A stretch of DNA of 43,476 nt from a virus, in the IMG/VR virus record IMGVR_UViG_3300017752_000033, positions 1-43,476 of that record; one strand, given 5' to 3'. Shown here in pieces: positions 4,332 through 38,331 of the stretch. The notes beneath the pieces are model-generated. The model ran no database searches, was not told the DNA's origin, and saw only the letters and a list, made by a program, of their open reading frames with translations. Made by a program: the position numbers and the translations under genes. Each line of letters opens with the position of its first letter. Position 1 is the stretch's first letter.

Positions 4332-5371
4332 GAAAGCAACTTTCTATATTGCTCTCGAACACGGTCATTTTCAGGAGAAAATTTATGCAATACGTTTTTA
4401 GCTGCCGACCTATATGTATCTATATTTTCGTCGTGAAATTTTAAAGCTCTAATTAATTGTTGAGCCCCAATATTGATATCATAACCAGGGTAAAAATAAC
4501 CAACCTCTTTAATGTCAAAAGAATTATGTATGAGAGGTATATCTAAATATAAAGCCTCAAGGTATACATAATTTAAAGAATTTAAAATTTGATGGGAAAC
4601 GATAACATTAGATGTATCAAATATATCTTTCATTGAAATTCTATCGCCAAAAAATGATTTATTGTGCTTGACTATATCTAGTTTTGACATCAAACTTCTA
4701 AAGTATAACTTTTCTCTAAATTTAGCAGAACAATGAACTTGTAGATTATGTATTAAGTGGGGTTCTTGTTTGTAGGTCGCCTCGACTAGATAGATAGGAA
4801 TTAAACAATTTTTAGTCATGTTAAGATTGGGCTCCATGATGCCAATGTTTTTGTCTTGACCGGGTTGATATCTTTGCGACGAATCCATGTATTTAGGGCT
4901 CCATATATAAGGAATAGTGAAGACTTTTTGTGTATTGTAAAAAGTTTGTAAATACGGTATAGAAAAAGAATAATGAGGAGACACCCAAACCTCGTCAACC
5001 TTATGTGTATATAGAGCCACATGTTCAGTTGAACTACACAACTCTACATCTGTCATTAACCTATTGCCATAATGTACATGAACATGTTTACATCTTGGAT
5101 TTTTACTTTTTGCGATATCAATCGTTTCTTTTTTTAATAACGATCCAGTTTGTAATACATAATCAAATTCATAGTCACCAATTTCATGTTCCTCCATGAT
5201 TAAAATATCCAAAGGAGGGTCAACACATTCTTCTACATCATGATTAACGCAAATAGAAACATTATAACCCATATCCTTGAGCATCTCCGCCAAGAATACT
5301 ATATTTTGATTTAATCCATTTACGAACAAACTTCTATTAAAAGTTGCAGTTAATAATATATTCATTAGCAT
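4328..5371 (-). CDS. DUF2827-type GT-B glycosyltransferase, copy 2
   Basis: 347 residues, a clear paralogue of the neighbour downstream: NGLNQNIVFLAEML near the N-terminus, VIVSHQILNSLNYVYLEALY, PLIHNS, and GYFYPGYDINIGAQQL. This is the DUF2827 pattern of a GT-B-type glycosyltransferase. An ATG two codons inside the frame (at 5365) aligns better with the paralogue's first residue and may be the true start; GGTG lies upstream of both and no strong ribosome site decides between them. The gene ends in an ATGA overlap with copy 1. Two adjacent diverged copies suggest two different linkages or acceptors, which is inference. Confidence 0.8.
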   Translation of the reverse strand: MLMNILLTATFNRSLFVNGLNQNIVFLAEMLKDMGYNVSICVNHDVEECVDPPLDILIMEEHEIGDYEFDYVLQTGSLLKKETIDIAKSKNPRCKHVHVHYGNRLMTDVELCSSTEHVALYTHKVDEVWVSPHYSFSIPYLQTFYNTQKVFTIPYIWSPKYMDSSQRYQPGQDKNIGIMEPNLNMTKNCLIPIYLVEATYKQEPHLIHNLQVHCSAKFREKLYFRSLMSKLDIVKHNKSFFGDRISMKDIFDTSNVIVSHQILNSLNYVYLEALYLDIPLIHNSFDIKEVGYFYPGYDINIGAQQLIRALKFHDENIDTYRSAAKNVLHKFSPENDRVREQYRKLLS

Positions 5372-21990: not shown

Positions 21991-22736
21991 AAATCCTTAT
22001 ACCTATATACTTTATACACTTTATTCAAGTGTTCAGGTAGAAATAATTCTTTCTTAGGGTAGCCGTAAATAGGGTGGTGGTACATAGTATTATCGCCCAG
22101 GTATATCCCCAAATGAAATACTCTATCTAAAGTAGGCTTAAACACAATGATATCATAATCTTTTATGCATGAAAAATCAATATTTATAAAGTTATTTTCT
22201 ATGTTTTTTATTAAAAATTTATTAGAGTCTTTTCCTTGTCTCGCCCAATTTTTAATTGAGTTAGTAAATTTAATATTAAGTTCTAGTTGAAAAAAATCTT
22301 TCACGAATGTAATACAATCTTGAAAGTAAGGTATGAAAATTCTTTTTTGTAGAGGTTTGGGTTTGTATGAGTTGGGGTAGTATAAGTACTGACTCTTATC
22401 TTGTATCGAAAAAATAAATGAAGGTAAAGATAAAGATTCTGAAACATTTAAATCTAGTGAACTTGGATTGGAGTTGTACTCTATATGGCTATGATACAGA
22501 GATAAAATGTTTTTTTGTAAATAATATTTATAAAATCGTTTATCGTGAGAGATAAAATGGTTCACATCATAACTATCCTCATTCACAAAAGGTAGAAATT
22601 TAATAGTGCATCCATCTGACTCTAGAATAAAAACTCCACAAGTCTCCCTATTTTTGTGCTTTAGGGAATACTGTAAAGCCTCATGTACTACATTAGTATT
22701 TCCAAGATCCAGGGAAGCCTCCAAACGGTAATCCAT
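21987..22736 (-). CDS. gpK-like tail tip protein: JAB/MPN metalloprotease plus NlpC/P60
   Basis: 249 residues with the lambda gpK layout. The N-terminal JAB/MPN domain has E31 in ETCG, the zinc motif HSH at 82-84, and Ser92/93 with Asp95 completing H-x-H...S-x-x-D. The C-terminal NlpC/P60 domain has Cys141 (QDCITFVKDFF) as the presumed nucleophile and His208 (FHLGIYLG) as its partner. Known relatives are tail-tip proteins with peptidoglycan peptidase and metalloprotease domains, used in tail assembly or cell-wall penetration. The ATG lies inside the end of the gpL-like gene (44-base overlap) with no clear ribosome site, so coupling is likely. The stop overlaps the tip gene start by ATGA. All key residues I looked for are present. 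Confidence 0.88.
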   Translation of the reverse strand: MDYRLEASLDLGNTNVVHEALQYSLKHKNRETCGVFILESDGCTIKFLPFVNEDSYDVNHFISHDKRFYKYYLQKNILSLYHSHIEYNSNPSSLDLNVSESLSLPSFIFSIQDKSQYLYYPNSYKPKPLQKRIFIPYFQDCITFVKDFFQLELNIKFTNSIKNWARQGKDSNKFLIKNIENNFINIDFSCIKDYDIIVFKPTLDRVFHLGIYLGDNTMYHHPIYGYPKKELFLPEHLNKVYKVYRYKDL

Positions 22737-23595
22737 TATCTAATTCACTATCTCCAAACCGAGCACGACAACCTTTTAAGTTTTTACTACATGCATCCTC
22801 AACCCAGTTACTCTTATTGGTCTCGGGGTCAATACCAACTGTTCCGTCTTTTAGGCAGACGTAAAGTTTGGGAGCTAGGTTGGGTTGAGTTTCATCTAAA
22901 ATTAAAACATATTCGCCTTTTTTATATGTTGCTTCTGGATCAAAAATAAAAGGGTCGCCCCTTACGATAGGTGTACTATCTGAAAAATGGATAGGGTTGC
23001 CCTTGCTGTCTGTTTTGGGCGGACCATCGTAACCGCAACCGATATGATGCCGGTAACGCCATTGACATGTATTGTAAACAATTTTACGATTAGGTAAAAA
23101 AGAATTTTCTTTTTCAAGGGGTGAGGATAATTCGAATGCTATGGAGCTTGCATTTTCATGAGTTTTTTTATTAATAATATACTTTTCAACGGGAAAAGAG
23201 TCTTCATTACCTGTACCAAATGGATTAAGATTATTGGGGAAATTATTATTGCTTAAAAATTTTACAAAAGTACGAATGCGAAAAATTTCATAACCCATAA
23301 AATCATCAAAAAACCTTGTTTTTAAACCGAAAAATCCATCACTATTATCAAACACTAATGTTGGACGAGGAAATTCATTGTCAGCATAATCAAACCCATT
23401 GACAGAAAAGGGTATATAAAAATATTCATTCCTGCCTCCCCCTTCGCCATAAAAAATACTTTGCTTGTATCCGTTTTCGCCGTTATGAAAGTAATAGTTA
23501 TTACCTCGAACTTTTTTAGTCAAAGACAATCGAAACAAAGTAATTAAAGTGGAAGGTTCAAAATCTAAAATTTCATCAATAATGGACTGCTTCAT
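22693..23595 (-). CDS. gpL-like tail tip protein with four-cysteine iron-sulfur-type motif
   Basis: 300 residues. The C-terminal part holds the gpL signature: NTCQWRYRHHIGCGYDGPP with Cys177 and Cys187, then CSKNLKGCRARFG with Cys269 and Cys276, ending in LPFGGFPG. In lambda gpL the equivalent four cysteines bind an iron-sulfur cluster; the same is expected here. Between Cys187 and Cys269 lies an ~80-residue insert with a chitin-binding-like pattern (ATYKKGEYVLI ... LYVCLKDG ... SNW) and an extra Cys247. The N-terminal 160 residues are the usual beta domain that docks on the gpM ring. It starts 19 bases after the gpM-like gene and overlaps the gpK-like gene, as expected for a tip cassette. 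Confidence 0.88.
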   Translation of the reverse strand: MKQSIIDEILDFEPSTLITLFRLSLTKKVRGNNYYFHNGENGYKQSIFYGEGGGRNEYFYIPFSVNGFDYADNEFPRPTLVFDNSDGFFGLKTRFFDDFMGYEIFRIRTFVKFLSNNNFPNNLNPFGTGNEDSFPVEKYIINKKTHENASSIAFELSSPLEKENSFLPNRKIVYNTCQWRYRHHIGCGYDGPPKTDSKGNPIHFSDSTPIVRGDPFIFDPEATYKKGEYVLILDETQPNLAPKLYVCLKDGTVGIDPETNKSNWVEDACSKNLKGCRARFGDSELDNGLPFGGFPGSWKY

Positions 23596-23614
23596 GGTAT
23601 ATATAATAACCTAT

Positions 23615-24775
23615 TTACCTCGGACTTTCAATAAAAGTAGCAGTAATAGTATGATTGTTAAAGTAAATAAAATTATGTGTCCATTCGGGGCAGTAAAAAT
23701 AACTCATATTACGTCGGTGTGGGGTAGTATTATTGTCGTTTGAAATTTCAACACCATAATCTTTTTGAATATGGAAGCCAAACCTTTTATAACCTAAGTG
23801 GCTCTCTAGAAACAATAATATTCTTTTTGCCTCGAGGTTGCTTCTAGCAGAAAATGTAACATTTAAATTAGTTAAGTTTGGATTAAATCCATACTTATTG
23901 TATTTAGAGTAAGCTTCCGATAGATTTGATTTTTTATATTTAGGAGCATGATCAATACTAATAATGTCATCCGCCCTAAAGTCAAACATGCGTACATCAA
24001 GATAGCCCGCATTAGTTAAGGGAGGGTAGGGGTAATAGGAACACTCGTGAGGTTTATTTATGAAAATAGAATTCCTATATAGGGTATTCGAATTGCGACC
24101 ATTATCGTAAGGCTCAAACACATTAAGGGGATCAAGTAAGGATATAAAATTTGTTGAATTATTACTGAATTCTAAAATACTTGAGTTAACAGGAAAACTT
24201 TTATAACTATCGGGTTTATAGAGAACATTTTTATCGCTAAGGTTTACATCTTTGTTTGAATTGTTAGCGAATTGAGCAGAGAAGTTTCCAGCATATCCCA
24301 CTTCAGATAAAGCATATTTTGTTTCAATGTTGTCGTTAAAATGAACATTAGGTTCAACACTTTTCAGTATAGATGCAGCTGTAGAAGTTAAGGTTGCCTT
24401 AATTGAATTAACATCATAATAAGATTTTTCATGAGTATAATTTAAACAATTAAAAGCATTAACTTTGTAAGGGTAAAAAGGTTGGTAATCAAAAGCTGGT
24501 ATTCTCTTGTTATCAAAATGACCTTCTATATTGTATTGTTGAGGCTCGTAATAAAACTGTTTTTGAAAAAAAGAAATTAAGTCATGTGACTGTGTGTCTA
24601 TTAATTCTTCAAAATTTAAATTTAATGTCATTGTTAGAGAATTAATACCTTGAGGTAAAACTTGAGAATAATTATCTCCATAACGAACGGAATGATTTAA
24701 AGAAGTGAAAGATGCAGACGAGCCAAAAGCTGGCTGCATATCTAAATTGTTATACTCTGTATTCTTGAGGTCCAT
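23615..24775 (-). CDS. gpM-like minor tail protein (distal tail ring)
   Basis: 386 residues. The N-terminal part has the Phage_min_tail signature: HSVRYGDNYSQVLPQGIN at ~29-46, followed by LNLNFEELIDTQSHDLISFF. The end repeats the fold pattern with LTNLNVTFSARSNLEAKRIL and a closing CPEWTHNFIYFNNHTITATF. Lambda gpM is about 109 residues, so this protein is more than three times longer and looks like two related halves: the first ~110 residues and the last ~110. It should form the ring joining the tube to the tip. The start overlaps the preceding stop (TAATG). Confidence 0.8.
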   Translation of the reverse strand: MDLKNTEYNNLDMQPAFGSSASFTSLNHSVRYGDNYSQVLPQGINSLTMTLNLNFEELIDTQSHDLISFFQKQFYYEPQQYNIEGHFDNKRIPAFDYQPFYPYKVNAFNCLNYTHEKSYYDVNSIKATLTSTAASILKSVEPNVHFNDNIETKYALSEVGYAGNFSAQFANNSNKDVNLSDKNVLYKPDSYKSFPVNSSILEFSNNSTNFISLLDPLNVFEPYDNGRNSNTLYRNSIFINKPHECSYYPYPPLTNAGYLDVRMFDFRADDIISIDHAPKYKKSNLSEAYSKYNKYGFNPNLTNLNVTFSARSNLEAKRILLFLESHLGYKRFGFHIQKDYGVEISNDNNTTPHRRNMSYFYCPEWTHNFIYFNNHTITATFIESPR

Positions 24776-25950
24776 TATTGTAAAACTTGAGAAATAGTTA
24801 CAGAGCCATTCAAATAACCTCTAGAATTGACACTTAAAGACTCGCTTTGGACAGCTCCATTACAATGAAATGAAGACAGTAAGCCAGCAGAGTTATTGCG
24901 ATAATTATCGTAAGATAAATCTCTTAACTCACATACAACTTCAACGTTTTCTTGATTCATAACTTTATGTAAAACAGAGGGATCTAGATTATCGCCTTCT
25001 ACGGTGACACTTACATTTGTTTGACGTTTGGATGCTCGAGTGGGTAGAAATCCAATTTCTGGAACATAGTCTCCAGTGGGAACTTCATATTTAGGGTATC
25101 GAGAGATCGAGGCTGAATAAGAAAAACCAAGACCATAATTAAAACCAATAGAACTCAAGCCTACAAGTTTACTAGTTTCTCCATGAGGTATTGATTGCTG
25201 TTGGTATAAATCAGAAGAGTAATAGTTTAAACTTAAGCTTTCATCTTTAGTTAGGTTTCCATAAATATCAAAAGAAGCCTTAGCTTGAGAAATAGAGTTT
25301 GGGGAAATACTAAATTCAAACTGAGTTAAGTAGGCACCGTAAAATGCAAAATCTCCTAAAAAACCAGTTACTCTGTCGTTATTAATAGGAGGAAATTCAG
25401 TTGGATCTACTAAACCTGTAATGCTAAAAAAATGAGGTAAATTACCTTCGTTAACATAAAAATCTACATCTAAAGTTCCTTTGATTGGTGAGTCTGCGAC
25501 ATAATTAAAAGAAGGTTCGAAGTAACCATTTTGAGCTTCCTCTTCAGTTAATGACCAACCTCCACTTTTTGCATAAACTTTAGTCAAAAAATCATGACCA
25601 CCAGGGTTTACTTCTTCTGAGAAAAATAAATTTTTACCGTTTGGAAAAGTTATTTTAGAGTCTTTTTTTATCTTATTAATTGAAGATGATATTGGTCTAG
25701 GTGGCCCACCGATAGGACCCATGACAACTAACTCATTAGAACCTTCTTCGAAAACAAACATATCATCAAAAATCATATTAGATCCATCTCCGAATGCACA
25801 TATTTGTAAAATATTATCGTCTAGCTGGCGACTAGCTTTAATATCTTGACTCAATGTTAAGGATGCACTTTCTGCAAATATGTATTCCCCCGTGTTACTA
25901 CCTTCAACAGATAAAAACAGCGGGACATCATCGTAAGGTTTAAGTTTCAT
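24775..25950 (-). CDS. Tail-tube-like structural protein B
   Basis: 391 residues, beta-rich, with no enzymatic motif. It is a paralogue of the gene just upstream: YLTQFEFSISPNSISQAKAS here matches YLTEYSLSAGIGQIPQANAS there, both continuing into a (D/V)xYGxL turn. Later, FSYSASISRYPKYEVPTGDY aligns with FQYTMRIDREPVYAIGEPFP. The C-terminal half adds a domain with a GLLSSFHCNGAVQSESLSV segment. Position between tape measure and gpM suggests part of the distal tube or a tube-to-tip adaptor. The start overlaps the previous stop by ATGA. The structural role is inferred from context; I do not recognise a named family. Confidence 0.7.
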   Translation of the reverse strand: MKLKPYDDVPLFLSVEGSNTGEYIFAESASLTLSQDIKASRQLDDNILQICAFGDGSNMIFDDMFVFEEGSNELVVMGPIGGPPRPISSSINKIKKDSKITFPNGKNLFFSEEVNPGGHDFLTKVYAKSGGWSLTEEEAQNGYFEPSFNYVADSPIKGTLDVDFYVNEGNLPHFFSITGLVDPTEFPPINNDRVTGFLGDFAFYGAYLTQFEFSISPNSISQAKASFDIYGNLTKDESLSLNYYSSDLYQQQSIPHGETSKLVGLSSIGFNYGLGFSYSASISRYPKYEVPTGDYVPEIGFLPTRASKRQTNVSVTVEGDNLDPSVLHKVMNQENVEVVCELRDLSYDNYRNNSAGLLSSFHCNGAVQSESLSVNSRGYLNGSVTISQVLQ

Positions 25951-26759
25951 GCTTTAGAACTATCGTTAATATATGCGTTGTACGTCAAGTTTACAACTAA
26001 AACATCATCAACTGAGGATTTAATTGATTGCGATACAACAGTAGCATCGTCAAGAGTAAATTTTTCGATCAAGTTATCATTAATAGGGTTATTGAAACTA
26101 ATAGATAGATCTTGATGTTTAGGTTTAATTAGAAAATCACTAATCTTGTCAATTTCATAATCAAAAACTTCTAAATTGAAAGTTACCTCTTTCATGATAG
26201 GCATAACCCTATGAATGTGAATAGGGAAGGGTTCGCCAATCGCATAAACAGGCTCCCTGTCGATTCTCATGGTATATTGAAAGTCTGAAATTCTATTGCT
26301 CGAATAACCATCTACATCAATTTTAATTGATCCTTGGTTGGGTATTTGTATTGGTGGATGAGTTTCATCTCCAGACACACTAATGCCACCACCTAAATCA
26401 CCATATACAACTACACTAGCATTAGCTTGGGGTATCTGCCCGATGCCTGCAGATAAAGAATATTCCGTTAAATAACCATCTATAAAACCAAAGCTTTGAT
26501 CACCATAATTTATGCTACCACTCATCGGTTCTACACCAGTGTATCGCAAAAAAACATCTTCACCTATATAATACTTTGATATATTAAAATTACCAACAAT
26601 AGGCCCTTGCCTAACAGAATATGTGTACCCTTTTCCTAATATATCAATAGGTGTGTCTGGTATACTAAATCCTCCATCAATATCTGTAACACCAGAAACT
26701 CGTATGCCTGACAAATAGAACTGTTGCTCATAATTTAGAATGCCGCCTTTATTTGCCAC
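25947..26759 (-). CDS. Tail-tube-like structural protein A
   Basis: 270 residues, beta-rich, beginning MANKGGILNYEQQFYLSGIR. It shares with its downstream neighbour the motif IPQANASVVVYGDL and the segment FQYTMRIDREPVYAIGEPFP, so the pair arose by duplication. The start is GTG, fixed by a perfect AGGAGG eight bases upstream inside the end of the tape-measure gene (11-base overlap). This is the strongest ribosome site I found in the operon and suggests a high-copy product. A tube or distal-tube subunit is the simplest reading. No enzymatic residues are visible. Confidence 0.72.
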   Translation of the reverse strand: MANKGGILNYEQQFYLSGIRVSGVTDIDGGFSIPDTPIDILGKGYTYSVRQGPIVGNFNISKYYIGEDVFLRYTGVEPMSGSINYGDQSFGFIDGYLTEYSLSAGIGQIPQANASVVVYGDLGGGISVSGDETHPPIQIPNQGSIKIDVDGYSSNRISDFQYTMRIDREPVYAIGEPFPIHIHRVMPIMKEVTFNLEVFDYEIDKISDFLIKPKHQDLSISFNNPINDNLIEKFTLDDATVVSQSIKSSVDDVLVVNLTYNAYINDSSKA

Positions 26760-29700
26760 GTAAGCTACCTCCTACTCTTTGCTCCTGAGATATAACATGA
26801 GTAACTGCTTCTTTGATTTTGCCAGCTAAAACTTCTTGATTTACCGACCCCGAAGTGTCTCCAGAAGAGTTATTTGGTGGCACAGTAACATTAACACTAA
26901 TGTTATTTGATTGGCTGGATGTATTAGTAGCATTAGAAACATTTGATGACATATTGGGAGTATTAGTTACTGGGCCACCTTGATTCATCTTCATGGAGTT
27001 TAATCTATTAAAGAAGCCTGGGTATTTTTTTTCAACATTTTTAACACTGGAAGCTTTGATTACATACTCACCTTTATCGAGCATAATAGGTCCAACCTTA
27101 TCAATTCCTCCGGGACCATGAACCCTTCCGCCAGCACTCATTTGGAGTGGCTTTTCGTCTCTCGTTCTACTAAAGATTTCATTTGGAGTTTCTGTGTTAT
27201 TGCTTGAGGTGCCAGTATATAGATATTTATTATTAATAGTAGTATTTTTACCAGGCTGACTCAAGCGTGTCGCCGATTTACTATATGAATTAGTGTGGTT
27301 TGATGAAGGTGAACCTTGAGCGATTGAGGAGCCTGGGGACATGTTAGTATTTGATTCATTGGCTTTTTGTAATCCAAGATCGATACGTCCTGATTCACTT
27401 TTTGGTTTCATTTCTACCTTTTTAAACCCTGAACTATCAGCTTCAACTTTTTCTTCCAAAGACTTTAAGTTTTTAGCGTCTTTTTTGTCAGCTCGAGCAT
27501 TTTTAATATTTTTAAATTCGTTGTTAAGACCATGAGCGGCAATTGCACCAGTTATATTGCCTGCAATTGCTTGGAGTTGATTAGCGTTATTCATTACATG
27601 TTCATTTTGTTTTTGAACTTCGTATTCATATTTATCCAAAAGGTATTGAGCATAATCTTTGCGATAACTGTCGTTTGCTTTGTATCTAGCGCTCATCATG
27701 GGACTAGTGGAATCAATATCTAATGCTGAAGAACTATTTAATCTTTGAGGTTTCGATGGAGGTTTTGGAGAAGTGTCTTCATTTTGTCCTGACTCTTTTT
27801 CTCTGGAGGCTACTACATTACCTACTAATGTACCTGAGCCTTTAGCAATTTTACTCATAGCACTATCATCAGCATTACTAGTTAACGCTTTCTTACCTTT
27901 ATCCCATGTAGATTCAAGCCAATTTTTCTTATCTCCTGGATCTCCACCTTCATCAAAACCTGGAACTTCAAAGTTTGCAGATTCAAGCTGTTTCTCTAGA
28001 GATTTCCTGGTAGCAGGAATGCTTGAGGTATTCATTAAAGATTGTTGTATGTTGCTTGGGCTATCTGAACCAATAGACATTGTTTGGTCATAAAATTTAG
28101 AGGCAGCTGTGGATTCATTAGCGGGAACATGAGAATATTTAGCGTTTTCATCACCCACCCTAAATTTTTCAATTGGAGCCCTAGAGTTTACACTCTCCAT
28201 ATTTAAAGCTGCAGATTTTATATTAGCAGCTTTTTCGTGCAAGGAACGATTGAATAAGTTAGGTTCAGGACTTTCTACACTAGCAGGCTTACTGGAAGAC
28301 CTAGCAGTTAATTCACCTTTTAAATTCTTTTGACTCATAGCCACTCCAGTTTGGGCGCTCGGATTAAAACCAAAGCTTGACCAATCACTATGATCGCTCA
28401 TGCCGCCACGGTTTAATTTTTGAACAGGAAGTAAAGTTTTAGATAAATTAGCTAATCCACCCTGAAACAAGCCAACGATACCACCATGAAATTTATTTAG
28501 GGCATCAGATAATGCATTCATTCTAATCATTTCGCTATCTTCATCACTTAAGCTTCCGACCGATGGTTTTTCTTCGGATATCATTGGGCGTTGATTGAGT
28601 AAATTTTTCTCCATCATTGATCGATCTGCACTTTGAACAACTGAAGGTAATGGCGCTGCACCCTCTGTAGAGATATCAAATAAATCTTCATTATTTTTAT
28701 TGTATAAGTCATCCAGGGAGCCAGATTCATTAATTGACTCAAGAGATTTAGACCCTAACTTATCTACTATTTTTTTGCGAACGACATATTCGCCAGAAGT
28801 TAACATAGCTGGAACCTTGTCGGGAGAGCCAACACTACCCCCAGAGGCAAAACCTTGAATTAAACCACCTCTGTTTTTAGCTTCAATACCAGTGTCGCCC
28901 ATACCAAACAACTCAAATATACCACTCGTTAATTGTTTTGTTGCTCGCTGTTTAAATGCATCAGATATTGATTGAGCAATACCTCCCGCAAAACTCTTAA
29001 GTGAGTCGCTCATTGATTTTGTGCTATCGCCCATGTTTGTCACTAAATCATTAAGACCATTTTCGACGGCATCAAAACTAGTATTGGCAAGAGTTTCACC
29101 AAATCGCTCTAGAGCTACATTATTTTGTGCAATCCTCTCAGTGATTGTATCTCTAAAAAGAGCTTCCTTACCAAGCTCTAAATTCATTTCTTTTCGAGCT
29201 TGAGCTACGGCTAGGTCGGATTCTGCAGCTCTAACGGTAGCTCCTTTTTCGGAGTAAGCATCTCGGGTTCCTTCAGCTTTTTGAACTTTATATTGAGATC
29301 GCTTTTCATCCAGTTCAACCTCTCTAGCTCCATCTCTAAAACCCTCACCATTGGCAATTTTTTCCTTGAGTTTAATTAACTCTTTAGTGAAGTCTCTTTG
29401 GGCTTGATTCATTTCTTCATGAGCATCAAAAGTGAATTGTCCTGCTTTTAATTGAGCAGTGAACTGTTCTTCAGCCTCTTTAGCTTTTATTTTTGCTTGC
29501 TTTAAACTTTCTTCGGCTTCGATAGAAAAATATCCAGATTTAACTCTTTGATTAAAAACATCAGTTAGCCTGTTTGTTTCTGTAGTTAATTTTGTTGTGC
29601 TAGTGTCGACATCAATTTCGTTTCCAGTTTTACCAAAAAAATCAGATGTAGGGTCAGTCACTTTATTTCTTTTTCCTGAAACTGATTGAGCTTCACCCCT

Positions 29701-32700
29701 TGCCGAAAGAGCATTAGTTTGAGATTGCTCTAAAGCTTTCTTGCCAAAATCATTACTGTCCAACCTACTTCGAGCCTCAATTAAACTTGAGGAAAAACTA
29801 ATAGACTCTTCTGTCATTTTTCTTGAAGCCTCAGCTTCATATCTTTTAAATTCAATATTAGCTTTGTGTTGATCGGTCAAATTATTAGTTTCAGTAATTA
29901 AATCTTTGGTAGCTGTTTTTGATTTTGCTTGAAAACCGGTTAGTCCAACAAGTTCGTTTTGTATATCTGGCGAACTGGTACCAGAGAAATCTTTTCTGGT
30001 GATTTTGTTAAGCATGCCTTCTCTAGCTTGAGATTTACCTACAACATTACCATATTCCGTGATTGTGGATTGCTTGGCTTTTGTTGCAAAATCATTATCA
30101 TTCAGTCTTTGCTGGAAATCGTTTACAGACTTAACCCAAGATCTACCTTCTTCGGCCATTGTATTTAAAGTTTCCTGCAAATGAACTCCAGCTGTTTTAT
30201 CAGCTGCAAATTGTGCGGCAAGCTCTTTGCCGGCATTGGTAACCTCTGTAAGATTTAAATCTGCTTTACCTTCAAAAAATGTTTTTCCGGTATCTGGGTC
30301 GACTTCAAGTTTTGCATTAGTCTCTGTGTTTGAATCTCGCATTTTTTTACCAAAGCCAGATCGCTCGTTGCGTATCCTTTCTTGTATTGTTTGTGCGGCA
30401 AGCTCTTGTAATTTTGTATTTTTTTCTTCCGCTGCAATTCGAGCTCTTTGCTTTGCGAGAGCTTCAAGTTCGTTTGTGTATTCTTCGTCGAGAGTTACGG
30501 CTAAAGATTCTGTAAGTTTAGAGATGTAATCTGAGTTTTGTAAGTAACTTCTTTTAAACCCATTAACTTCTTTTGAAATTTGCCCATTAATTATAACAGC
30601 ATCAACTTCTTCTAACATAGCTTTATTTACTTCTTGTTGCATGCCTCCTTGAATAGCAAGAAATTTTTTCAATTCATTATATCTATCTACTCGCTGCCTA
30701 GCTGCACCTACCCCATTTTTATTAAGCTGAAATTCTTTACGTAATTGACCAAGATTGTTTTCTGCCATGGATTTTTCTTCATTCGCTACCCTTAATTGTT
30801 CATCTTTAGATTGGTTAATGGATTCAAGTTTGCTATTTAAGCCTTCACTAGAAACAACATTCATTTCTTGAAGTTTAGATAACTGCTTGGATTTCTCTGC
30901 TGAGTCGTTTAAATTTTTAAGGTAATCTAAAGATCTAGCGTTAGCTTCTTCTGCAGATCTAACACCTTTAAGCTTAGCGGATAGCTCTGACATGCCCGCA
31001 TCTGTGAGTTGTTTTTGTAATTTTTTGAGATTACCCTGAAATGCTTCTTCGGGATTTTCGCTAGCTTTAATCGTTTCAGTTGCAGTAGATGGATTGCTCT
31101 GTGATAAGCTGCCAGGGCCAGAGGGTTTTAATACTTTTTTTTCGTAATCTCCCTTTAAAATAGAGAAGTTCATTCCGGTTTTATCTTTACTTCCGGCAAA
31201 AAGATCTGCAGCTAATTTGTTTTGAGCAGCAATAGCATCGTCATTTGCTTTTTGTTTTTTATTTAAATATTCGTTATCTATTTTTTTCTGTTCTATTGCA
31301 ATTTTTTCGTTATTCTCTGTTTCTTCCGAAAGAAAACCTAGGGACTCTGTGAGTTTGGCTTGGTGGTTCATTCTTTGCGTGGCATAATTTTGCTCGTCTT
31401 TAAGTAACTTGAGGTTGTTGTTTGCCATGGTAGCCTGTAGAGATATAGCGTTTAATAGCTTTCTTTTTTGAGCATTAACTTCTTTAGATATGGAGGCTTG
31501 TATTTCATTCTCTTTAGAAATCTTTTCTCCTTCATTGGCTATTTTCTGATATATGGGATTGATTAAAGATAAAGTAGTTCTAATATGTTCAGCACTTTTT
31601 CCTGATGCCATTAATTGTAAAACAAACTCAGATAATGGTTGATTGATATCAGCTATTTCTTTCGCATAAGATTCCATCAAATCAAGATCTTTTCCATTAT
31701 CTCCATTGTTCATTCTTTGAAATTTACTCATTTGACCGAGAGCATCTTGCTTTTCTACCCCAGCAATATTCATAGTGTTAGATAGGTTCAATGCTCCGCT
31801 TTCGAAGGTTAACCTTTTTTCTCTATCATCCCCAAATATTCTTTGAGATAAATTTTGGTTTCGGTAAGCTGGCGCAACCTGGCCACTGGAAGTTTGTGAC
31901 TTCATGAGTACATGTTTAAAATCTATATCCTGCCCAAGAGCTCCTTCATACCCCATGTTTTGAGCTGAAGATGTCACCGATTGACGTATTGTAAGTTTAG
32001 TCATAGCTTCTTGCAGCTTACTCATTCCTTGAGCTGTACCCGAAGTCATAGCTTGCAACTCGTCTCCAGATAGATTTAGTTCTTTAGCTAAAGATAAAGC
32101 TGATTGTTGAAGTGCATTTTGATTTTTTATTAATGTGCTATTGAGAGACATTAATTTCATTTGCCCTTGATATGTATTAGCTTGACCAGAGTTGGTTAAG
32201 TCTGTTATTTGTTTTTGTGTTTCCTGAACAGATGTTGTAGCTTCCATTGCACTTCCAACGGCCTCAATACTTTTTGCTGTCTTTTTTGCGGATTTATTGA
32301 GTGTATCTAAACCACTATCAAAAAGGCCTGTATTTTCTTTTAAAGCTGAAAATATGGGAATAACTCCAGCTACAACGCTACCAATTAAAGGTAAACTCTT
32401 TGCCGCTCCACCTAAACTCTTTACAAAAGTACCCATTACACCTTTACTTTTCCCAAGAAACCCAGAGGTTCCTTGCAAGCTGCTTCCCCATTTTGTAAGC
32501 TTATCAGATAAACCTGAAGCCATTGGACTTAAAGCCTCAAAAGTTAAAGCTGCTTGGCTAGCGCCTTGAGCAACACCAGTAAAGGTTTTTAATACTTGGC
32601 CGGTAGTGCCTTCCACCTCAGAAAATGCTCCTTCTAGCATATATGTAACGGTGGTCAAACCAAACAAACGGCCTGTTAGATCAGTAGTTGCGTCACTTGC

Positions 32701-35700
32701 TTTTTGATTAGAGTCGGCAAGATCTTTAGATGTCGCATTAATTCTCTTCAAATATCCCTCATCAATTGCACCACGTCCAGCCTCCGTTGTGAAATTAGGA
32801 ATCAACCCATTACTAGCACCATGAGTTTTAGGATCTATGCCCATTTCCCTAGCTCTCTGGATGCCTTGCTTTACTCCAGCAGGCTCATCACGAGTATTGG
32901 TAACAGCCAATCCCATAGGGTTTAACCGAGACTTTAAACTATCGTCTTGATCGACACGAATCATTGATTCAGATATACCAGCAGATTTTTCACGAGCAAT
33001 CGATTCAGCTAAAGGATTAGCGAAATTAGGAATTAACCCTCTATTCAAAAACATTAAGTCGGACCTAACTTCGGGGCTATTTTTCCATTCATTTATCAGA
33101 GCCTCCATTTTATCTTTTTTGATAAAAAGTTTTGTGTTGGGGTCTGTAATGTTTAAGTTCATTTTCTGTTCACCAGGTAAAGATCTGCCGCTGGTGGCTT
33201 TAGTACCATAAAAACCTCTACGAGACGATGATGAACTGTTGCCTGATTTTACTGATTTGTATTGATCTCGATAACTTTTTTCGTAAGAATCTTTATCTTT
33301 AGTAAATTGACCCTTAAGTTTTTGCATCTGTTGTGGTGGCAGTTTTTTATTGGTCTCTAACCACTTTACAAATTGATTCATATGTTTACCAGTGCCTCCA
33401 AGGCTGGTATACCAGTCTTTTCCTCCATCGCGTCGATAAGCGAAACTTCTTTTAGCGAAAACGTTTGGGGCAAAGTTAGGAATTAATCCCCTGTTAAAAA
33501 TTTGCATAACCTCCGCTTCGCGAGGACTAATTTGATTTGTTCCATTAGGATTACGTCCAATATCTGATTGAGGCACCATTGAGTTCATTGATTTATCATA
33601 GAAATCATATTCTTTTCTACCATATTCTGTTTTATAATGTTTTAATAATGAAGGGTCATTTCTTCTGCCAGCAACATTAAGGTAGACACCGCCATTTTTT
33701 TTGGCCCACTCTTGTATGGCTCCGCTAGCCATAGCTTTTTTAAATTCTTCTACTTTAGGATAGTATCCTTTTTTAGGGTCAGCTCCCTTACTTAGTATTC
33801 TCAATAACTTCTTTTTATTGAATACATTTTTTTCTGGAACAGTTTTAGACAGCACCTGGCCATCAGTCACTGGTTGTCCAGGAGTAATACTACCAGCAAA
33901 ATCTTTAGCTACTGTTTTCGAAGTGCTAAAAGATGTAGCCCCAGAAGGCATTACATTGTCAGATTCACCTATATCCCTATAACCAGACATAGGCCCACTC
34001 ACATGAGACTTAGTAAAATTTTGTATAATTTTAACAACATCTTCAGGAGTCTTAACTCCAGAAAAAGATGGCATATTTTTGCCAATCGTAGGCTTATCAA
34101 TTGTTGACCTTGATTTGCTTTGGCCTCTATATAAATTTAAGTTCGCAAAGTTAGGAATTAATCCTCCAGAAGCATTTAATTCTTTAAGTTTTTCTTTAAT
34201 ATTTGTCTCAGCTCCTCCATCTTTAATTTGATCAAGAATCGAAGCAGCTTGGTCACCCACATTAACATAATCTCTAGCGTAGGTGAAAGCAATTTTAGAA
34301 CCGTCGGGAATTTGCTCCCCAAGTGCGGACTTAATTTTAGCTGAGGAGCCTTCTCGACTATCTGAGGTGAGCTTATTTTTGTTTTCCGTAACAACATGAC
34401 TTTTAATCGATTTACCCTTTCTTTGGTCTGGCATCCCTATCATATCGGCTACCTTGGCCCCAAAATTAAACCGGTAAGTCTTAACTGAATTAGATGCGGA
34501 TTTACCTTTCATTGCAACTGGACGTGCCTTGCTCTTGGGCTGTTTGAATCTAGAAAAGTTAAATAAACCTTGATTCATTATTTTCTTTAGTATTTTGGCG
34601 GGCCCATGACCATAATCATTTTGAGACCATATAGTATCTCCGTATGTATATGGACCCTGTATGTCAAACAATTTGCGAAGTTTTGGGTCAGAAGATTGAC
34701 TAGATATACCCTCTAAATCAAAAGGCTTGCTATCTTTACTGTATGATTTATTAAAAGCTTCCTCAACAATATACTTTTCAAAAGCATTTCCCTTGATAAA
34801 TTGTTTACCTTGACCTGAACCTAGATTATTAAGTTCATTAATTTTCTTTTGGAAATTTTTTATTTCTTTTTCGTTTAAATGATACGTTAGACCTGGATGA
34901 AGAGGTGCATTTTTATTAAATAATTTAGTTTCATTTAAATAATTCTTTGGAATATTTACATCCTTGGCATATTCATCAATAGACTTGTATTGTTTAGATT
35001 GAAGTTTTGAGTATGCATTTTTATAATTGTAACTAGTAGTAAGTGGTTTATATTTTTGCTTTAATTTTTCATGCTCAGACTTACCTGCATCAAGAGCTAT
35101 TTTATCTAAGTCTTTCCTGAAGGGGGTAATTAATTGTTTTTCTTTTGGGTTTGTTTTTTGCTTTTGAATTTGATTAAAAAATTTAGTAGCACTACTTAAG
35201 GATGGATCGATTGTATATTTACCTGATTCCTTCATGGAATCAAATGCTAAATTTCGAATAAATGAATTTGACTCTTTAGAGCCTGATAAAAATATATGAG
35301 AAGCTTGCGCCTTAGTTAGCCCACTACCCTTGAGAAAATCATCAATAGTACTCGCCTTATTTAATGAAGATTTAATTTTTCGATAATCTTTAACAAAGTT
35401 AGGAATCAAGCCTGAAGATAAATTATATTGTTTTATTAGTTTAGCTTGCTCTTTTAAAGATAAAGATTCTGTATCGATACCAGATTGAGATAAAACATTT
35501 AAGGAGTCAGAAAAGTTTTCCTGTTGAAAAGATTGACCTTCTTTGGTTAAACCTCTTCTACGTAGAAAATCAGAAATGCTTTTATCGCTATATAACCTAA
35601 TACTCTTTGCGATTAAATTAGCTTGTTCAATTTTATTGTATTTAGATTCAATTGGAGTTAAACCTTTGCCTATTTGATCAACCTTAGCTTGATCGTGGGT

Positions 35701-38331
35701 CATTTTGTAACCCAGGGCTCCTGTGTATTTTTTATTAATTGCTTTGTCGTACTTATCACCCACAGCTTTAGTGCTAGGAGCTCGCCTACCTTTTTTTCCT
35801 TTAGAGAAATTTTCAGTTTCTCCAATTGCACTAACCTTCCTATCTTTTCTGTTTTGTGGATTATCATAGCTAGAGAAAAATACATCTCTAGATAAAACAT
35901 TGACTCCTGATTGCTGTAATGCAAGAAGCTCTTTTTGTTGGGACTTGATATGACCAGCTACAGTACTAACTGGAGCTTCTAATTTATGCAAGCCAGTTTT
36001 CTTGTTGCCTCTATAATCAGCGACACTAGTTTCTACTTGCATTTTAGCTTTTGGCAATTGAAGAATGTTGGTGCCAGGTATAATAGTAGCTTCATTGGCA
36101 AAGTTGGGAATGTAACCGCCATAATATACTGGAGTTCCATTTAGAGAAACAGAATGGCCTGATTGATACTTTGATCTTAAGGTTCTTAATTTGTCTAGCT
36201 GATCTTGACTGTAACCGTTTACCTTGCTAAGTCGATCTAAATATAAACTTCCACTACCTAGCTTTTGTTTTAAAAATGTTTCAACAAACCTTCTTTCGTT
36301 AGAATTATTAAGTTGAAAGTTTATGTTTTGTCCTGATTTTTTGTTTTTAAATTTAATACCTTTATTGGCTGGATCGTTTAATGTGTCATTAATTTTTTGA
36401 GATCGAGTCCTGGGATCAATAAAATTCGGAATTAAGCCATCGAATTTATATGGGTCGAAGCCATGTTTATCTTGAAAAGTTGATTGGTATTGCTTGCCAG
36501 CTTGACTTTTTTGTGGAGGCAAAATAGCTTCTTGAGAAAACCCATCGAATTTTTTAACTGTTTCTGCATCGTTATACACGACATCGCCAACTCCTTTTAT
36601 TTTAGTTTTCTTAATCTTACCAGGTTTATAACCTGCCTGTTTGGCTCCACCGGACTCAACTACAGCTTCCATATTAGAGACTGAGGAATCTTTAGGGATA
36701 AGTCCAGAAGATGCAGTTTTAGGTTTACCTTGAGTTAGGCCAGGTGTAACTCCAGACCTTAATAATCCAGGAGCTAATGAAGCAGCTAATTGAGATTGCC
36801 TTTCTAGGAATTTAGTTTGATCTGCAATTACTCCAAGCATAATTTGCTCTTGTTTAAGTTTGTCACCAGCATACTTATTTAATTCTAGAGCTAATTGTTT
36901 ATTGTTACCTAAAGCCATAACAATAGATTCTTGAATTTTCCGTTCTTTGTCTTTAGCTGAAACTATTCCAAGAATATCTTTAAGAGAACTTTTAGCGAAT
37001 TTTAAGGCATTAAAAAACAACTTACCAAATATACCGAATGCAACAACTAAACCTGGACCAGTTAAAACACTTCCTATTCCTCGAACCAAACCTTTAGCGA
37101 AATCCGAGCCCAAGGATTCTGAATCTGAGCCAAATAAATCATTTAAAGCTCCACCAGCCGAATTAATAGCATCCAATATATTTGAAATGCCTGGAGCTAA
37201 AGCTAACTCTCCTATGTTGGCAGATAATTCTTGAATGGTGAGTGAGGTTTGTTTCGCTAAAGAGGATATTGTTTGCTGGAGCTGAGCGTTTTTTTGCTGT
37301 GCTTGGTCGGTAGCACTAGCTGATATATCAGTCGCTTGCGCATACAGAGAATTCTCTCTGTTTAAATCTTTCAAAGCAGCCTTTAAGACATTAATTTGAA
37401 AAACACCACCGACTTGCTCTGCAACTGCAGCTTTCGTTGAAGATCCTAAAGTATCATAAGTTTTAGATAAACTAGTCAAGACTGTTAAGGCTGGTAGAGT
37501 GTTGCCTCTAATATCTCGAACGGCCACCCCGAGTTCTTCTAATCTATCCAAAGTACTACTTCGTTGTATACGAGTAAATATTGTTTTAAAACTATTACCA
37601 ATAACAGCACCACCACGAGCTGTAATTTGTTGCGCAGAAGTTACTGCTCCTACCAACTGATCAAAGCTTACCCCGGCATCTTGAGCTACAGCTCCAGATC
37701 GAGCTAGAGCATTAATTAAATCGTCCGCACTAACAGCAAACTTAACGTCTACTGCAGCCAATTTATTAATTATAGAGGTAGTAGTTAGGCCAGCATCAGC
37801 AAAACCATTGACGGCAGCAGTCAAACCAGAAACTGCAGCCGCTGCATCGATTCCAGTTAGTCGAGTTAATATCAATGCATCATTGGTTCGACGTAATGTT
37901 TCCTCCATGGATAGACCTTGACGAGAGAATTCTAAAGCTGCTTCCGCAGCTATTTCTAAGCCTTGAGATGTGTTGCGAGCTACATCAAATAAGTCTCGAC
38001 CAAATTTTTCTAAATTAGGCAAACTCGTACCTAATACAACATTAATGTCTGTTAAAAGTTTTTCAACTTTAACCGCTTGTATTACGACTTGAGAGAATGC
38101 TGTTGCTACACTACCTATAATGGCCGCTGATGCTCCAAATGCAATCACACGAGCGTTAGATGCTTCTAAAGATTTAGAGAACTCATCAGCTTTTTGAGTT
38201 ATTCTACCCAAAGGTTGTGTGTAATCTGATGCACGAATTTTAACGCTTAATCCTCTGCGGTTCACTCGATTGACGATATCTTGAATAGATTCATCTAATC
38301 CTACTACTCTTCCTTTAATGTTTAATGCCAT
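26749..38331 (-). CDS. Giant tape measure protein with embedded cargo-like modules
   Basis: 3860 residues; lambda gpH is 853. Residues ~50-400 are the conserved tape-measure domain (PhageMin_Tail type): ALEFSRQGLSMEETLRRTND, LARSGAVAQDAGVSFDQLVG, GNSFKTIFTRIQ, EQVGGVFQINVLKAAL. A hydrophobic stretch follows near 415-445. From 543 to 1842 eight copies of GLIPNF-type motif (543 GLIPKD, 632, 739 GYIPNF, 974, 1390, 1615, 1765, 1842) separate unrelated segments, including an ADP-ribosyltransferase-like one and a GNAFE nuclease-like one. Residues ~2000-3100 are Lys/Glu/Gln-rich coiled coil. Two copies of a GG.V..P.KV..ML..GEYV(I/V) motif lie near 3160 and 3735. It sets tail length and occupies the tube lumen. 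GAGAGG 11 bases before the ATG supports the start. Confidence 0.92.
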   Translation of the reverse strand: MALNIKGRVVGLDESIQDIVNRVNRRGLSVKIRASDYTQPLGRITQKADEFSKSLEASNARVIAFGASAAIIGSVATAFSQVVIQAVKVEKLLTDINVVLGTSLPNLEKFGRDLFDVARNTSQGLEIAAEAALEFSRQGLSMEETLRRTNDALILTRLTGIDAAAAVSGLTAAVNGFADAGLTTTSIINKLAAVDVKFAVSADDLINALARSGAVAQDAGVSFDQLVGAVTSAQQITARGGAVIGNSFKTIFTRIQRSSTLDRLEELGVAVRDIRGNTLPALTVLTSLSKTYDTLGSSTKAAVAEQVGGVFQINVLKAALKDLNRENSLYAQATDISASATDQAQQKNAQLQQTISSLAKQTSLTIQELSANIGELALAPGISNILDAINSAGGALNDLFGSDSESLGSDFAKGLVRGIGSVLTGPGLVVAFGIFGKLFFNALKFAKSSLKDILGIVSAKDKERKIQESIVMALGNNKQLALELNKYAGDKLKQEQIMLGVIADQTKFLERQSQLAASLAPGLLRSGVTPGLTQGKPKTASSGLIPKDSSVSNMEAVVESGGAKQAGYKPGKIKKTKIKGVGDVVYNDAETVKKFDGFSQEAILPPQKSQAGKQYQSTFQDKHGFDPYKFDGLIPNFIDPRTRSQKINDTLNDPANKGIKFKNKKSGQNINFQLNNSNERRFVETFLKQKLGSGSLYLDRLSKVNGYSQDQLDKLRTLRSKYQSGHSVSLNGTPVYYGGYIPNFANEATIIPGTNILQLPKAKMQVETSVADYRGNKKTGLHKLEAPVSTVAGHIKSQQKELLALQQSGVNVLSRDVFFSSYDNPQNRKDRKVSAIGETENFSKGKKGRRAPSTKAVGDKYDKAINKKYTGALGYKMTHDQAKVDQIGKGLTPIESKYNKIEQANLIAKSIRLYSDKSISDFLRRRGLTKEGQSFQQENFSDSLNVLSQSGIDTESLSLKEQAKLIKQYNLSSGLIPNFVKDYRKIKSSLNKASTIDDFLKGSGLTKAQASHIFLSGSKESNSFIRNLAFDSMKESGKYTIDPSLSSATKFFNQIQKQKTNPKEKQLITPFRKDLDKIALDAGKSEHEKLKQKYKPLTTSYNYKNAYSKLQSKQYKSIDEYAKDVNIPKNYLNETKLFNKNAPLHPGLTYHLNEKEIKNFQKKINELNNLGSGQGKQFIKGNAFEKYIVEEAFNKSYSKDSKPFDLEGISSQSSDPKLRKLFDIQGPYTYGDTIWSQNDYGHGPAKILKKIMNQGLFNFSRFKQPKSKARPVAMKGKSASNSVKTYRFNFGAKVADMIGMPDQRKGKSIKSHVVTENKNKLTSDSREGSSAKIKSALGEQIPDGSKIAFTYARDYVNVGDQAASILDQIKDGGAETNIKEKLKELNASGGLIPNFANLNLYRGQSKSRSTIDKPTIGKNMPSFSGVKTPEDVVKIIQNFTKSHVSGPMSGYRDIGESDNVMPSGATSFSTSKTVAKDFAGSITPGQPVTDGQVLSKTVPEKNVFNKKKLLRILSKGADPKKGYYPKVEEFKKAMASGAIQEWAKKNGGVYLNVAGRRNDPSLLKHYKTEYGRKEYDFYDKSMNSMVPQSDIGRNPNGTNQISPREAEVMQIFNRGLIPNFAPNVFAKRSFAYRRDGGKDWYTSLGGTGKHMNQFVKWLETNKKLPPQQMQKLKGQFTKDKDSYEKSYRDQYKSVKSGNSSSSSRRGFYGTKATSGRSLPGEQKMNLNITDPNTKLFIKKDKMEALINEWKNSPEVRSDLMFLNRGLIPNFANPLAESIAREKSAGISESMIRVDQDDSLKSRLNPMGLAVTNTRDEPAGVKQGIQRAREMGIDPKTHGASNGLIPNFTTEAGRGAIDEGYLKRINATSKDLADSNQKASDATTDLTGRLFGLTTVTYMLEGAFSEVEGTTGQVLKTFTGVAQGASQAALTFEALSPMASGLSDKLTKWGSSLQGTSGFLGKSKGVMGTFVKSLGGAAKSLPLIGSVVAGVIPIFSALKENTGLFDSGLDTLNKSAKKTAKSIEAVGSAMEATTSVQETQKQITDLTNSGQANTYQGQMKLMSLNSTLIKNQNALQQSALSLAKELNLSGDELQAMTSGTAQGMSKLQEAMTKLTIRQSVTSSAQNMGYEGALGQDIDFKHVLMKSQTSSGQVAPAYRNQNLSQRIFGDDREKRLTFESGALNLSNTMNIAGVEKQDALGQMSKFQRMNNGDNGKDLDLMESYAKEIADINQPLSEFVLQLMASGKSAEHIRTTLSLINPIYQKIANEGEKISKENEIQASISKEVNAQKRKLLNAISLQATMANNNLKLLKDEQNYATQRMNHQAKLTESLGFLSEETENNEKIAIEQKKIDNEYLNKKQKANDDAIAAQNKLAADLFAGSKDKTGMNFSILKGDYEKKVLKPSGPGSLSQSNPSTATETIKASENPEEAFQGNLKKLQKQLTDAGMSELSAKLKGVRSAEEANARSLDYLKNLNDSAEKSKQLSKLQEMNVVSSEGLNSKLESINQSKDEQLRVANEEKSMAENNLGQLRKEFQLNKNGVGAARQRVDRYNELKKFLAIQGGMQQEVNKAMLEEVDAVIINGQISKEVNGFKRSYLQNSDYISKLTESLAVTLDEEYTNELEALAKQRARIAAEEKNTKLQELAAQTIQERIRNERSGFGKKMRDSNTETNAKLEVDPDTGKTFFEGKADLNLTEVTNAGKELAAQFAADKTAGVHLQETLNTMAEEGRSWVKSVNDFQQRLNDNDFATKAKQSTITEYGNVVGKSQAREGMLNKITRKDFSGTSSPDIQNELVGLTGFQAKSKTATKDLITETNNLTDQHKANIEFKRYEAEASRKMTEESISFSSSLIEARSRLDSNDFGKKALEQSQTNALSARGEAQSVSGKRNKVTDPTSDFFGKTGNEIDVDTSTTKLTTETNRLTDVFNQRVKSGYFSIEAEESLKQAKIKAKEAEEQFTAQLKAGQFTFDAHEEMNQAQRDFTKELIKLKEKIANGEGFRDGAREVELDEKRSQYKVQKAEGTRDAYSEKGATVRAAESDLAVAQARKEMNLELGKEALFRDTITERIAQNNVALERFGETLANTSFDAVENGLNDLVTNMGDSTKSMSDSLKSFAGGIAQSISDAFKQRATKQLTSGIFELFGMGDTGIEAKNRGGLIQGFASGGSVGSPDKVPAMLTSGEYVVRKKIVDKLGSKSLESINESGSLDDLYNKNNEDLFDISTEGAAPLPSVVQSADRSMMEKNLLNQRPMISEEKPSVGSLSDEDSEMIRMNALSDALNKFHGGIVGLFQGGLANLSKTLLPVQKLNRGGMSDHSDWSSFGFNPSAQTGVAMSQKNLKGELTARSSSKPASVESPEPNLFNRSLHEKAANIKSAALNMESVNSRAPIEKFRVGDENAKYSHVPANESTAASKFYDQTMSIGSDSPSNIQQSLMNTSSIPATRKSLEKQLESANFEVPGFDEGGDPGDKKNWLESTWDKGKKALTSNADDSAMSKIAKGSGTLVGNVVASREKESGQNEDTSPKPPSKPQRLNSSSALDIDSTSPMMSARYKANDSYRKDYAQYLLDKYEYEVQKQNEHVMNNANQLQAIAGNITGAIAAHGLNNEFKNIKNARADKKDAKNLKSLEEKVEADSSGFKKVEMKPKSESGRIDLGLQKANESNTNMSPGSSIAQGSPSSNHTNSYSKSATRLSQPGKNTTINNKYLYTGTSSNNTETPNEIFSRTRDEKPLQMSAGGRVHGPGGIDKVGPIMLDKGEYVIKASSVKNVEKKYPGFFNRLNSMKMNQGGPVTNTPNMSSNVSNATNTSSQSNNISVNVTVPPNNSSGDTSGSVNQEVLAGKIKEAVTHVISQEQRVGGSLRGK
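26768..26773 (-). promoter_or_regulatory. Strong ribosome binding site (AGGAGG) deciding a GTG start
   Basis: AGGAGG on the minus strand, eight bases before GTG of tail-tube-like protein A and inside the last codons of the tape-measure gene. It supports GTG over later starts. Confidence 0.85.
32791..36705 (-). repeat. Eight dispersed GLIPNF-type motifs in the tape measure gene
   Basis: Six-codon motifs at 36688-36705 (GLIPKD), 36421-36438, 36100-36117 (GYIPNF), 35395-35412, 34147-34164, 33472-33489, 33022-33039 and 32791-32808. Most are preceded by Ser/Asn-Gly, Ser-Ser or Asn-Arg and several are followed by Ala-Asn. Spacing is irregular (77 to 416 residues) and the intervening sequences are not alike, so these are conserved joints between modules and not a tandem repeat. 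Confidence 0.9.
33560..34146 (-). other. ADP-ribosyltransferase-like segment within the tape measure
   Basis: Residues ~1396-1590, between two GLIPNF motifs. Visible are LYRGQ with Arg1402, SFSTSKTVAKDFAG (Ser-Thr-Ser motif near 1469) and GRKEYDFY with Glu1574. The order and spacing fit the R-S-E class of ADP-ribosyltransferases (R...STS...E). The usual second acidic residue of an ExE pair is not obvious, so activity is uncertain. Confidence 0.5.

Follow-up and report, generated by a model that had tools for sequence, protein, structure and literature searches.

Exchangeable, joint-bounded cassettes in the tape measure proteins of an uncultured phage and its relatives: a probable payload bay in a tail ruler

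The window analysed here, that is, the whole stretch of DNA under study, comprises 43,476 nt of the IMG/VR record IMGVR_UViG_3300017752_000033 (positions 1-43,476), from an uncultured phage. One long ORF was recognized as the gene for a tape measure protein (TMP) by its profile matches to PF10145 (Pfam, E=2e-20, residues 125-309) and to the PHROG tape-measure families (best 2e-40), and by its position upstream of the minor tail genes. Three of these resemble lambda M, L and K (Table 1), and the place of lambda J is taken by a giant tail protein of 5109 aa (6661-21990, minus strand) with a PF13550 match (8e-16), a weak Calx-beta match and a net charge of -242. Since the TMP is followed by lambda-like M, L and K genes and a J-like giant, a Gram-negative host and a lambda-like route of entry are likely. 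Further along the same strand (265-5371), two tandem DUF2827 genes lie beside the gene for a 988-aa protein that matches glycosyltransferases of the GT25, GT8 and GT34 types; this region is possibly a glycosylation cluster near the tail genes.

Table 1. Features of the TMP gene and the adjoining minor tail genes in the window
Feature	Position (nt)	Strand	Remarks
TMP, 3860 aa, no cysteine	26749..38331	-	ORF and profile matches
N-terminal TMP core, residues 1-542	36706..38331	-	PF10145 at 125-309; membrane-like segment at 418-436
Joint 1, GLIPKD, degenerate	36688..36705	-	Most relatives have GxIPNF/Y at the same place
WIN_1, constant N-side anchor, 83 aa, family c0 (VVYN..E.VK.FPG...PAI.PP)	36439..36687	-	
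Joint 2, GLIPNF	36421..36438	-	
WIN_2 cassette, 101 aa, family c3	36118..36420	-	Ordinals 2-6 in other TMPs
Joint 3, GYIPNF	36100..36117	-	
WIN_3 cassette, 229 aa	35413..36099	-	Common in the window's clade
Joint 4, GLIPNF	35395..35412	-	
WIN_4 cassette, 410 aa (residues 980-1389)	34165..35394	-	C-terminal part of the GxxFE / D / GD..GH family
Joint 5, GLIPNF	34147..34164	-	
WIN_5 cassette, 219 aa (residues 1396-1614), putatively ART-like	33490..34146	-	LYRG, SFST, ExE
Joint 6, GLIPNF	33472..33489	-	
WIN_6 cassette, 144 aa, family c28	33040..33471	-	Ordinal 6 here, 3 in L005
Joint 7, GLIPNF	33022..33039	-	
WIN_7, constant C-side anchor, 71 aa, family c1 (NPxGLAVTNTRDEP)	32809..33021	-	
Joint 8, GLIPNF	32791..32808	-	Homology to the closest relative, L002, stops here
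C-terminal TMP core	26749..32790	-	Membrane-like segment at residues 1973-1991
Lambda-like minor tail genes, M-, L- and K-like	21987..26759	-	PF05939, PF05100, NlpC/P60+JAB; directly downstream of TMP

A short peptide, which we call the joint, recurs in the window TMP with starts at residues 543, 632, 739, 974, 1390, 1615, 1765 and 1842, giving start-to-start spacings of 89, 107, 235, 416, 225, 150 and 77 residues. Seven of these joints are exact GxIPNF copies (GYIPNF at residue 739); the remaining one, GLIPKD at residue 543, is degenerate, its homologue in most relatives being a proper GxIPN(F/Y) joint. The seven exact copies compare with a chance expectation of about 0.001, and with a mean of 0.0005 and a maximum of 1 in 2000 shuffles of the window TMP, and no GxIPNF was found in the other reading frames of the window. 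This recount bore out the original prediction, made from the window alone, as to the copies of GLIPNF, their variants and coordinates, and their spacing of 77 to 416 residues.

Relatives were collected as 31 loci from a scan of viral contigs with the N-terminal core of the window TMP, the best 80 of 465 matching stretches from a scan with an alignment of cores, and five bacterial MAG contigs. After removal of duplicates and truncated copies, 81 TMPs reached the zone that holds the joints, and in this set, which includes the best 80 of 465, joints were present in 81/81, with 2-12 copies each and 476 in total. The motif had been predicted to recur in related phages, and it does so in every TMP that reaches the zone. 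All of the six-frame motif matches in the fetched loci (546/546) fell in ORFs of at least 600 aa on the TMP strand. The joint consensus, derived from an earlier set of 161 copies, is G, mostly L or F, I or V, P, N (99%) and F or Y, where the G and P at 100% are a product of the search pattern, which accepted either N or K at position five; A-S-x often stands before the joint and A after it. Among the relatives the N-terminal TMP core is 38-74% identical.

No isolated phage with a cassette zone was found in the collection searched, the relatives with the motif all being metagenomic contigs, and the motif is absent from seven more distant TMPs of isolated phages. Five relatives (L100, L101, L102, L103 and L104) are on contigs binned into MAGs, namely of Halobacteriovorax, Neomarinimicrobiota and Flavobacteriaceae/Flavobacteriales; these contigs may be mis-binned phage DNA, so that the host is uncertain. 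Judging from the MAG names of these few relatives, the phage family is probably marine. In the TMP of L083, four extra joint motifs with an exact 18-residue spacing occur at residues 1853-1907, in the C-terminal core and away from the cassettes.

The 419 between-joint segments fall into 43 families of at least two members and 51 singletons of at least 30 residues. Two families serve as anchors, with the variable cassettes located between them. Family c0 (74-92 residues, VVYNxAExVKxFPGMxQPAIMPP) usually comes directly after the first joint, the clustered family also holding longer, more variable segments, so that "constant" applies to the short form only; family c1 (57-83 residues, NPxGLAVTNTRDEP) often comes directly before the last joint. 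The original prediction could have failed if the segments were co-linear or conserved as one fold; neither is the case, the families being different and changing their order between TMPs. The ordinal position of c3, for example, shifts from second to sixth, and a c18-c4 pair is repeated in L015. Several putative activities can occur in one TMP (HAD-like and ART-like in L066; GNAT and several others in L015), so the disparate domains in one polypeptide that define polyvalent proteins are found in the TMP family, while the window's own assigned cassette is ART-like only, at moderate confidence. In L010 (7144-8171), a 521-bp tandem duplication lies within one c0-type segment, its copies being 99.6% identical, which shows recent segment growth inside the array.

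The joints are the borders of the cassettes. In all-against-all protein alignments of the TMPs, 95.6% of the high-identity homology ends in the zone (n=1350, which are not independent because the TMPs share ancestry) lay no more than 15 residues from a joint, as against 17.6% of random zone positions (maximum over 200 trials, 20.2%). When the ends were collapsed to 366 distinct query positions, 91% were near a joint. The match between the window and its closest relative, L002, likewise ends at joint 8.

Near-identical phages have exchanged whole cassettes from joint to joint. Between L010 and L011, identity is 99.7% over 4344 nt to the left and 99.9% over 6992 nt to the right, and only one cassette differs, of 272 versus 342 residues, with both homology ends within joint codons. 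L063 and L066 differ by the gain or loss of one HAD-like cassette, and an ART-like cassette together with c22 is present in L066 and missing from L062. Further swaps or insertions were seen in L053/L059, L067/L069 and L052/L058. Assembly artefacts are an unlikely source of these exchanges, since separate metagenome records supplied the contigs and the frames stay open. Cassettes also move between lineages, to judge from their identities. The ART-like cassettes of the window and L019 are 76.7% identical, with TMP cores at 52.7%, and L026 and L053 share 81% identity in their SNase cassettes as against 53.6% in their cores; for L019 compared with L063 and L049, the core is 65% and the ART-like cassette 54-57% identical.

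Searches of Pfam (243 segments), PHROGs (100) and NCBIfam (143) gave few significant matches, and most cassettes had none. Two families could be assigned by a significant profile match together with characteristic residues. The SNase cassettes (L005, L020, L023, L026 and L053) match PF00565 above the cut-off and, across the domain, a PDB profile of thermonuclease structures (6e-8); D18, R34, D39, E42 and R82 (alignment A10, L026 numbering) are invariant in 5/5 and align to the SNase active site. Family c6 is predicted to be a GNAT acetyltransferase, with a match to PF00583 in L040 above the cut-off (5.1e-5) and RGxGYG in 9/9 members, corresponding to the acetyl-CoA motif (R/Q)xxGx(G/A); its PDB profile match is weak (0.41). 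The HAD-like assignment is made by motif, DFDETL ... TAR ... DD being present in four members. A P-loop cassette in L004 resembles AAA_33 below the cut-off (E 0.01).

The ART-like family has ExE in 9/9 members, LYRG in 8/9 and an invariant S in an STS-like motif, in the catalytic order R / STS / ExE; the member in L007 is without the N-terminal LYRG. In the window cassette, WIN_5, the LYRG arginine is at residue 7 after the joint and ExE is 7 residues before the next joint. Cassettes of this type had no Pfam match. The AF2 model of WIN_5 (pLDDT 75.6) gave ART-type hits in 14/18 Foldseek rows, with a best E of 0.45 and a TM of about 0.25, an E-value at which the structural support is suggestive only. 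WIN_5 is thus called ART-like at moderate confidence, from its residues and their order and not from a significant fold match. Families c10 (hhalign E 7e-6), c17 and others have GxxFE, D, GD..GH and Y..D in common with WIN_4, whose family is possibly nuclease-like; the motifs that hint at a PD-(D/E)xK nuclease are GxxFE and D only. The AF2 model of WIN_4 is of low confidence (pLDDT 55), no Foldseek or Pfam match was obtained and the Foldseek rows are meaningless; we therefore do not call it a nuclease. A PDB profile search with the ART-like, WIN_4-like (c10) and HAD-like families found nothing significant.

Median dN/dS values of the families range from 0.09 to 0.67, which indicates that the cassette families are mostly under purifying selection, weakest in c10. 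Cassette queries retrieved 23 loci, some on known contigs, among which there were no stand-alone ART-like, GNAT or HAD-like copies; all were within motif-bearing ORFs of TMP size. The cassette system that had been proposed from the window is strongly supported by these results, in that all 81 relatives have joints, segments are shuffled and exchanged at joints and several families are identifiable enzymes (SNase, GNAT) or keep catalytic residues (ART-like, HAD-like). For the ART-like and nuclease cassettes "toxin-like" is a reasonable description, but killing and host takeover or anti-defence are equally likely as roles.

The cassettes are nearly devoid of cysteine. Only 3 cysteines were counted in 77,209 residues (408 cassette and anchor segments of at least 30 residues), against 6.5 per 1000 in the other ORFs of the same loci, while Trp is alike in the two (6.5 vs 6.8 per 1000). 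The TMPs of seven isolated phages (L106, L107 and L135-L139), lambda H included, have 1 cysteine in about 15,200 residues, and near-absence of cysteine is general to these and to all the fetched TMPs. The cassettes thus follow what looks like a general TMP rule, of which we found no statement in the open literature searched. Exclusion of cysteine fits domains that travel with the TMP. Membrane-like segments precede the first joint by about 120-220 residues in most TMPs, and TMPs of the window's clade have them about 120-180 residues after the last joint as well; their frequency is 0.13 per 1000 residues in the zone versus 2.6 in the N core. The zone is hydrophilic and basic, with a net charge of +5.2 per 100 residues.

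Peptidoglycan-hydrolase domains are embedded in some TMPs, for example those of SPbeta (YomI) and mycobacteriophage TM4. Those are cell-wall enzymes for entry, whereas the present TMPs carry a shuffled array of SNase, GNAT, HAD and ART-type domains. A mixture of this kind recalls the polyvalent proteins, although these, to our knowledge, have neither a conserved joint nor cassettes swapped from motif to motif among near-identical phages. Polyvalent proteins combine ART, GNAT, nuclease, ParB-like and other domains in one injected chain (Iyer et al. 2017, PMC5512222). They share the multi-enzyme mix but are described as head-packaged or conjugation-linked, and the text of that paper makes no mention of the tape measure (PMC5512222). 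TMPs reside in the tail tube and at infection pass by injection into the cell envelope, as discussed in PMC10770324. In Thermus phage P23-45, gp96 is a giant TMP of 5002 aa with a fused virion RNA polymerase (PMC10770324); this enzyme acts in the host at entry, so that TMP-borne enzymes can work after ejection. P23-45 differs in having one fixed N-terminal enzyme, with no joint motif, array or exchange described (PMC10770324).

Tme and Sle1 are TMP-related effectors of contractile injection systems and have been called reconfigurable (PMC11126660, PMC13277306). The likeness lies in a TMP-like protein with a toxin or enzyme domain that varies between bacteria, an endonuclease in Tme; the difference is that Tme and Sle1 have one C-terminal domain in a bacterial nanomachine, whereas here there are internal, motif-bounded arrays of up to about nine cassettes in a phage ruler. 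Identity with a Tme-type effector was rejected, the TMP having no DUF4157 (Pfam) and the surrounding genes being those of a lambda-like phage tail. A survey of phage-protein mosaicism flagged TMPs by sequence and confirmed no genuine recent case (PMC10684548); L010/L011 and the other pairs above, by contrast, are recent TMP mosaicism. In the open literature searched, we found no account of TMPs with cassette arrays bounded by joints.

We consider it probable that this ruler protein has a payload bay of swappable cassettes built into it, which is ejected into the host. Carriage in the tail and entry into the host are what we infer from TMP biology, the cysteine exclusion, the flanking membrane-like segments and the P23-45 precedent. 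The zone between the N- and C-terminal cores, bounded by two constant anchors, holds as many as about nine exchangeable globular cassettes, of which several have enzyme active sites. The joint peptide, A-S-x-G-(L/F)-(I/V)-P-N-(F/Y)-A, may act as a generic linker or docking element beside which any cassette folds. It would be the only site at which exchange spares both neighbours, so that cassettes could be swapped by ordinary recombination and the products cut at joints are those found. As part of the packed TMP, the cassettes would lie in the tail tube cysteine-free and probably unfolded or compact; the tail lumen may not admit enzymes of 20-40 kDa in folded form, and they would then have to travel unfolded. 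On ejection, the flanking hydrophobic segments may insert in the host inner membrane, leaving the zone as a hydrophilic loop between them that would refold in the periplasm or cytoplasm, where the enzymes could modify host targets, for takeover or anti-defence, ahead of phage gene expression.

The joints might instead be protease sites, with cleavage of the TMP at GxIPNF, either in the virion or during entry, setting the delivered cassettes free as enzymes; the original prediction had named processing sites and docking linkers side by side. A short, nearly invariant motif flanking every domain does resemble a processing site, and the catalytic strands start and stop a few residues from the joint. 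However, no peptidase was identified in the window TMP or among the Pfam matches of the cassettes, the joint also borders the constant anchors, where release lacks an obvious use, and the proline of the motif suits a linker or turn equally well. Because the joint borders constant segments and no peptidase was found, we rank a linker or docking role above cleavage, which we regard as unlikely. At the DNA level, the joints could be recombination signals, site-specific or homing, with the peptide motif as a by-product, and exchange ends do fall about 10-30 nt from the motif. Yet the G, P and N codons of joints in the same gene agree at 0.417 versus 0.406 expected from codon usage (n=4176), and Pfam revealed no recombinase or homing gene inside the arrays. 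With codon agreement at chance level, selection maintains the joint as a peptide, and where breakpoints fall reflects either the products that survive or the sites where short similarity permits joining. The codon test leads us to reject a DNA-level signal, which we hold to be extremely improbable.

Two other explanations dispense with enzymatic action in the host. Being parts of a ruler, with many families lacking an assigned function, the segments might be structural spacers or tail-lumen domains that tune length or the DNA channel, their likeness to enzymes being ancestral and inactive. But in the SNase, GNAT, HAD-like and ART-like families the catalytic residues are invariant within an otherwise diverging sequence, and the zone is aromatic- and Trp-rich, unlike the N-terminal core. 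Cassette changes alone make the TMPs of near-identical phages tens to hundreds of residues longer or shorter, and the length of the zone shows no correlation with that of the remaining TMP (r=0.16 over 51 complete TMPs). This possibility we judge quite improbable. Cassette turnover could also be a means of evading defences that recognize TMPs, with no function in the host. SNIPE binds diverse siphovirus TMPs and phages escape it by TMP mutations (PMC13190303), but the escape regions reported there are N-terminal, the part that is conserved here, and evasion needs no conserved active sites, enzyme folds or purifying selection within families; we give it only a slim chance.

Returning to the payload bay, we lean towards its fullest form, in which the tail ruler is a modular, multi-warhead system of effector delivery, with an open-ended pool of cysteine-free enzyme cassettes shared horizontally, one universal joint, membrane-inserting flanks and reshuffling on the scale of strains. 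Recent mosaicism of TMPs, unconfirmed in the large survey (PMC10684548), is confirmed here. The near-total exclusion of cysteine from TMPs and cassettes alike offers a clue to the passage of protein through the tail tube. The joint is also a sequence handle: any segment between motifs is a predicted delivered domain, and the pool can therefore be mined for effectors. If delivery takes place as we propose, such a phage would carry several early takeover or anti-defence enzymes without separate packaging signals, and could change them rapidly.
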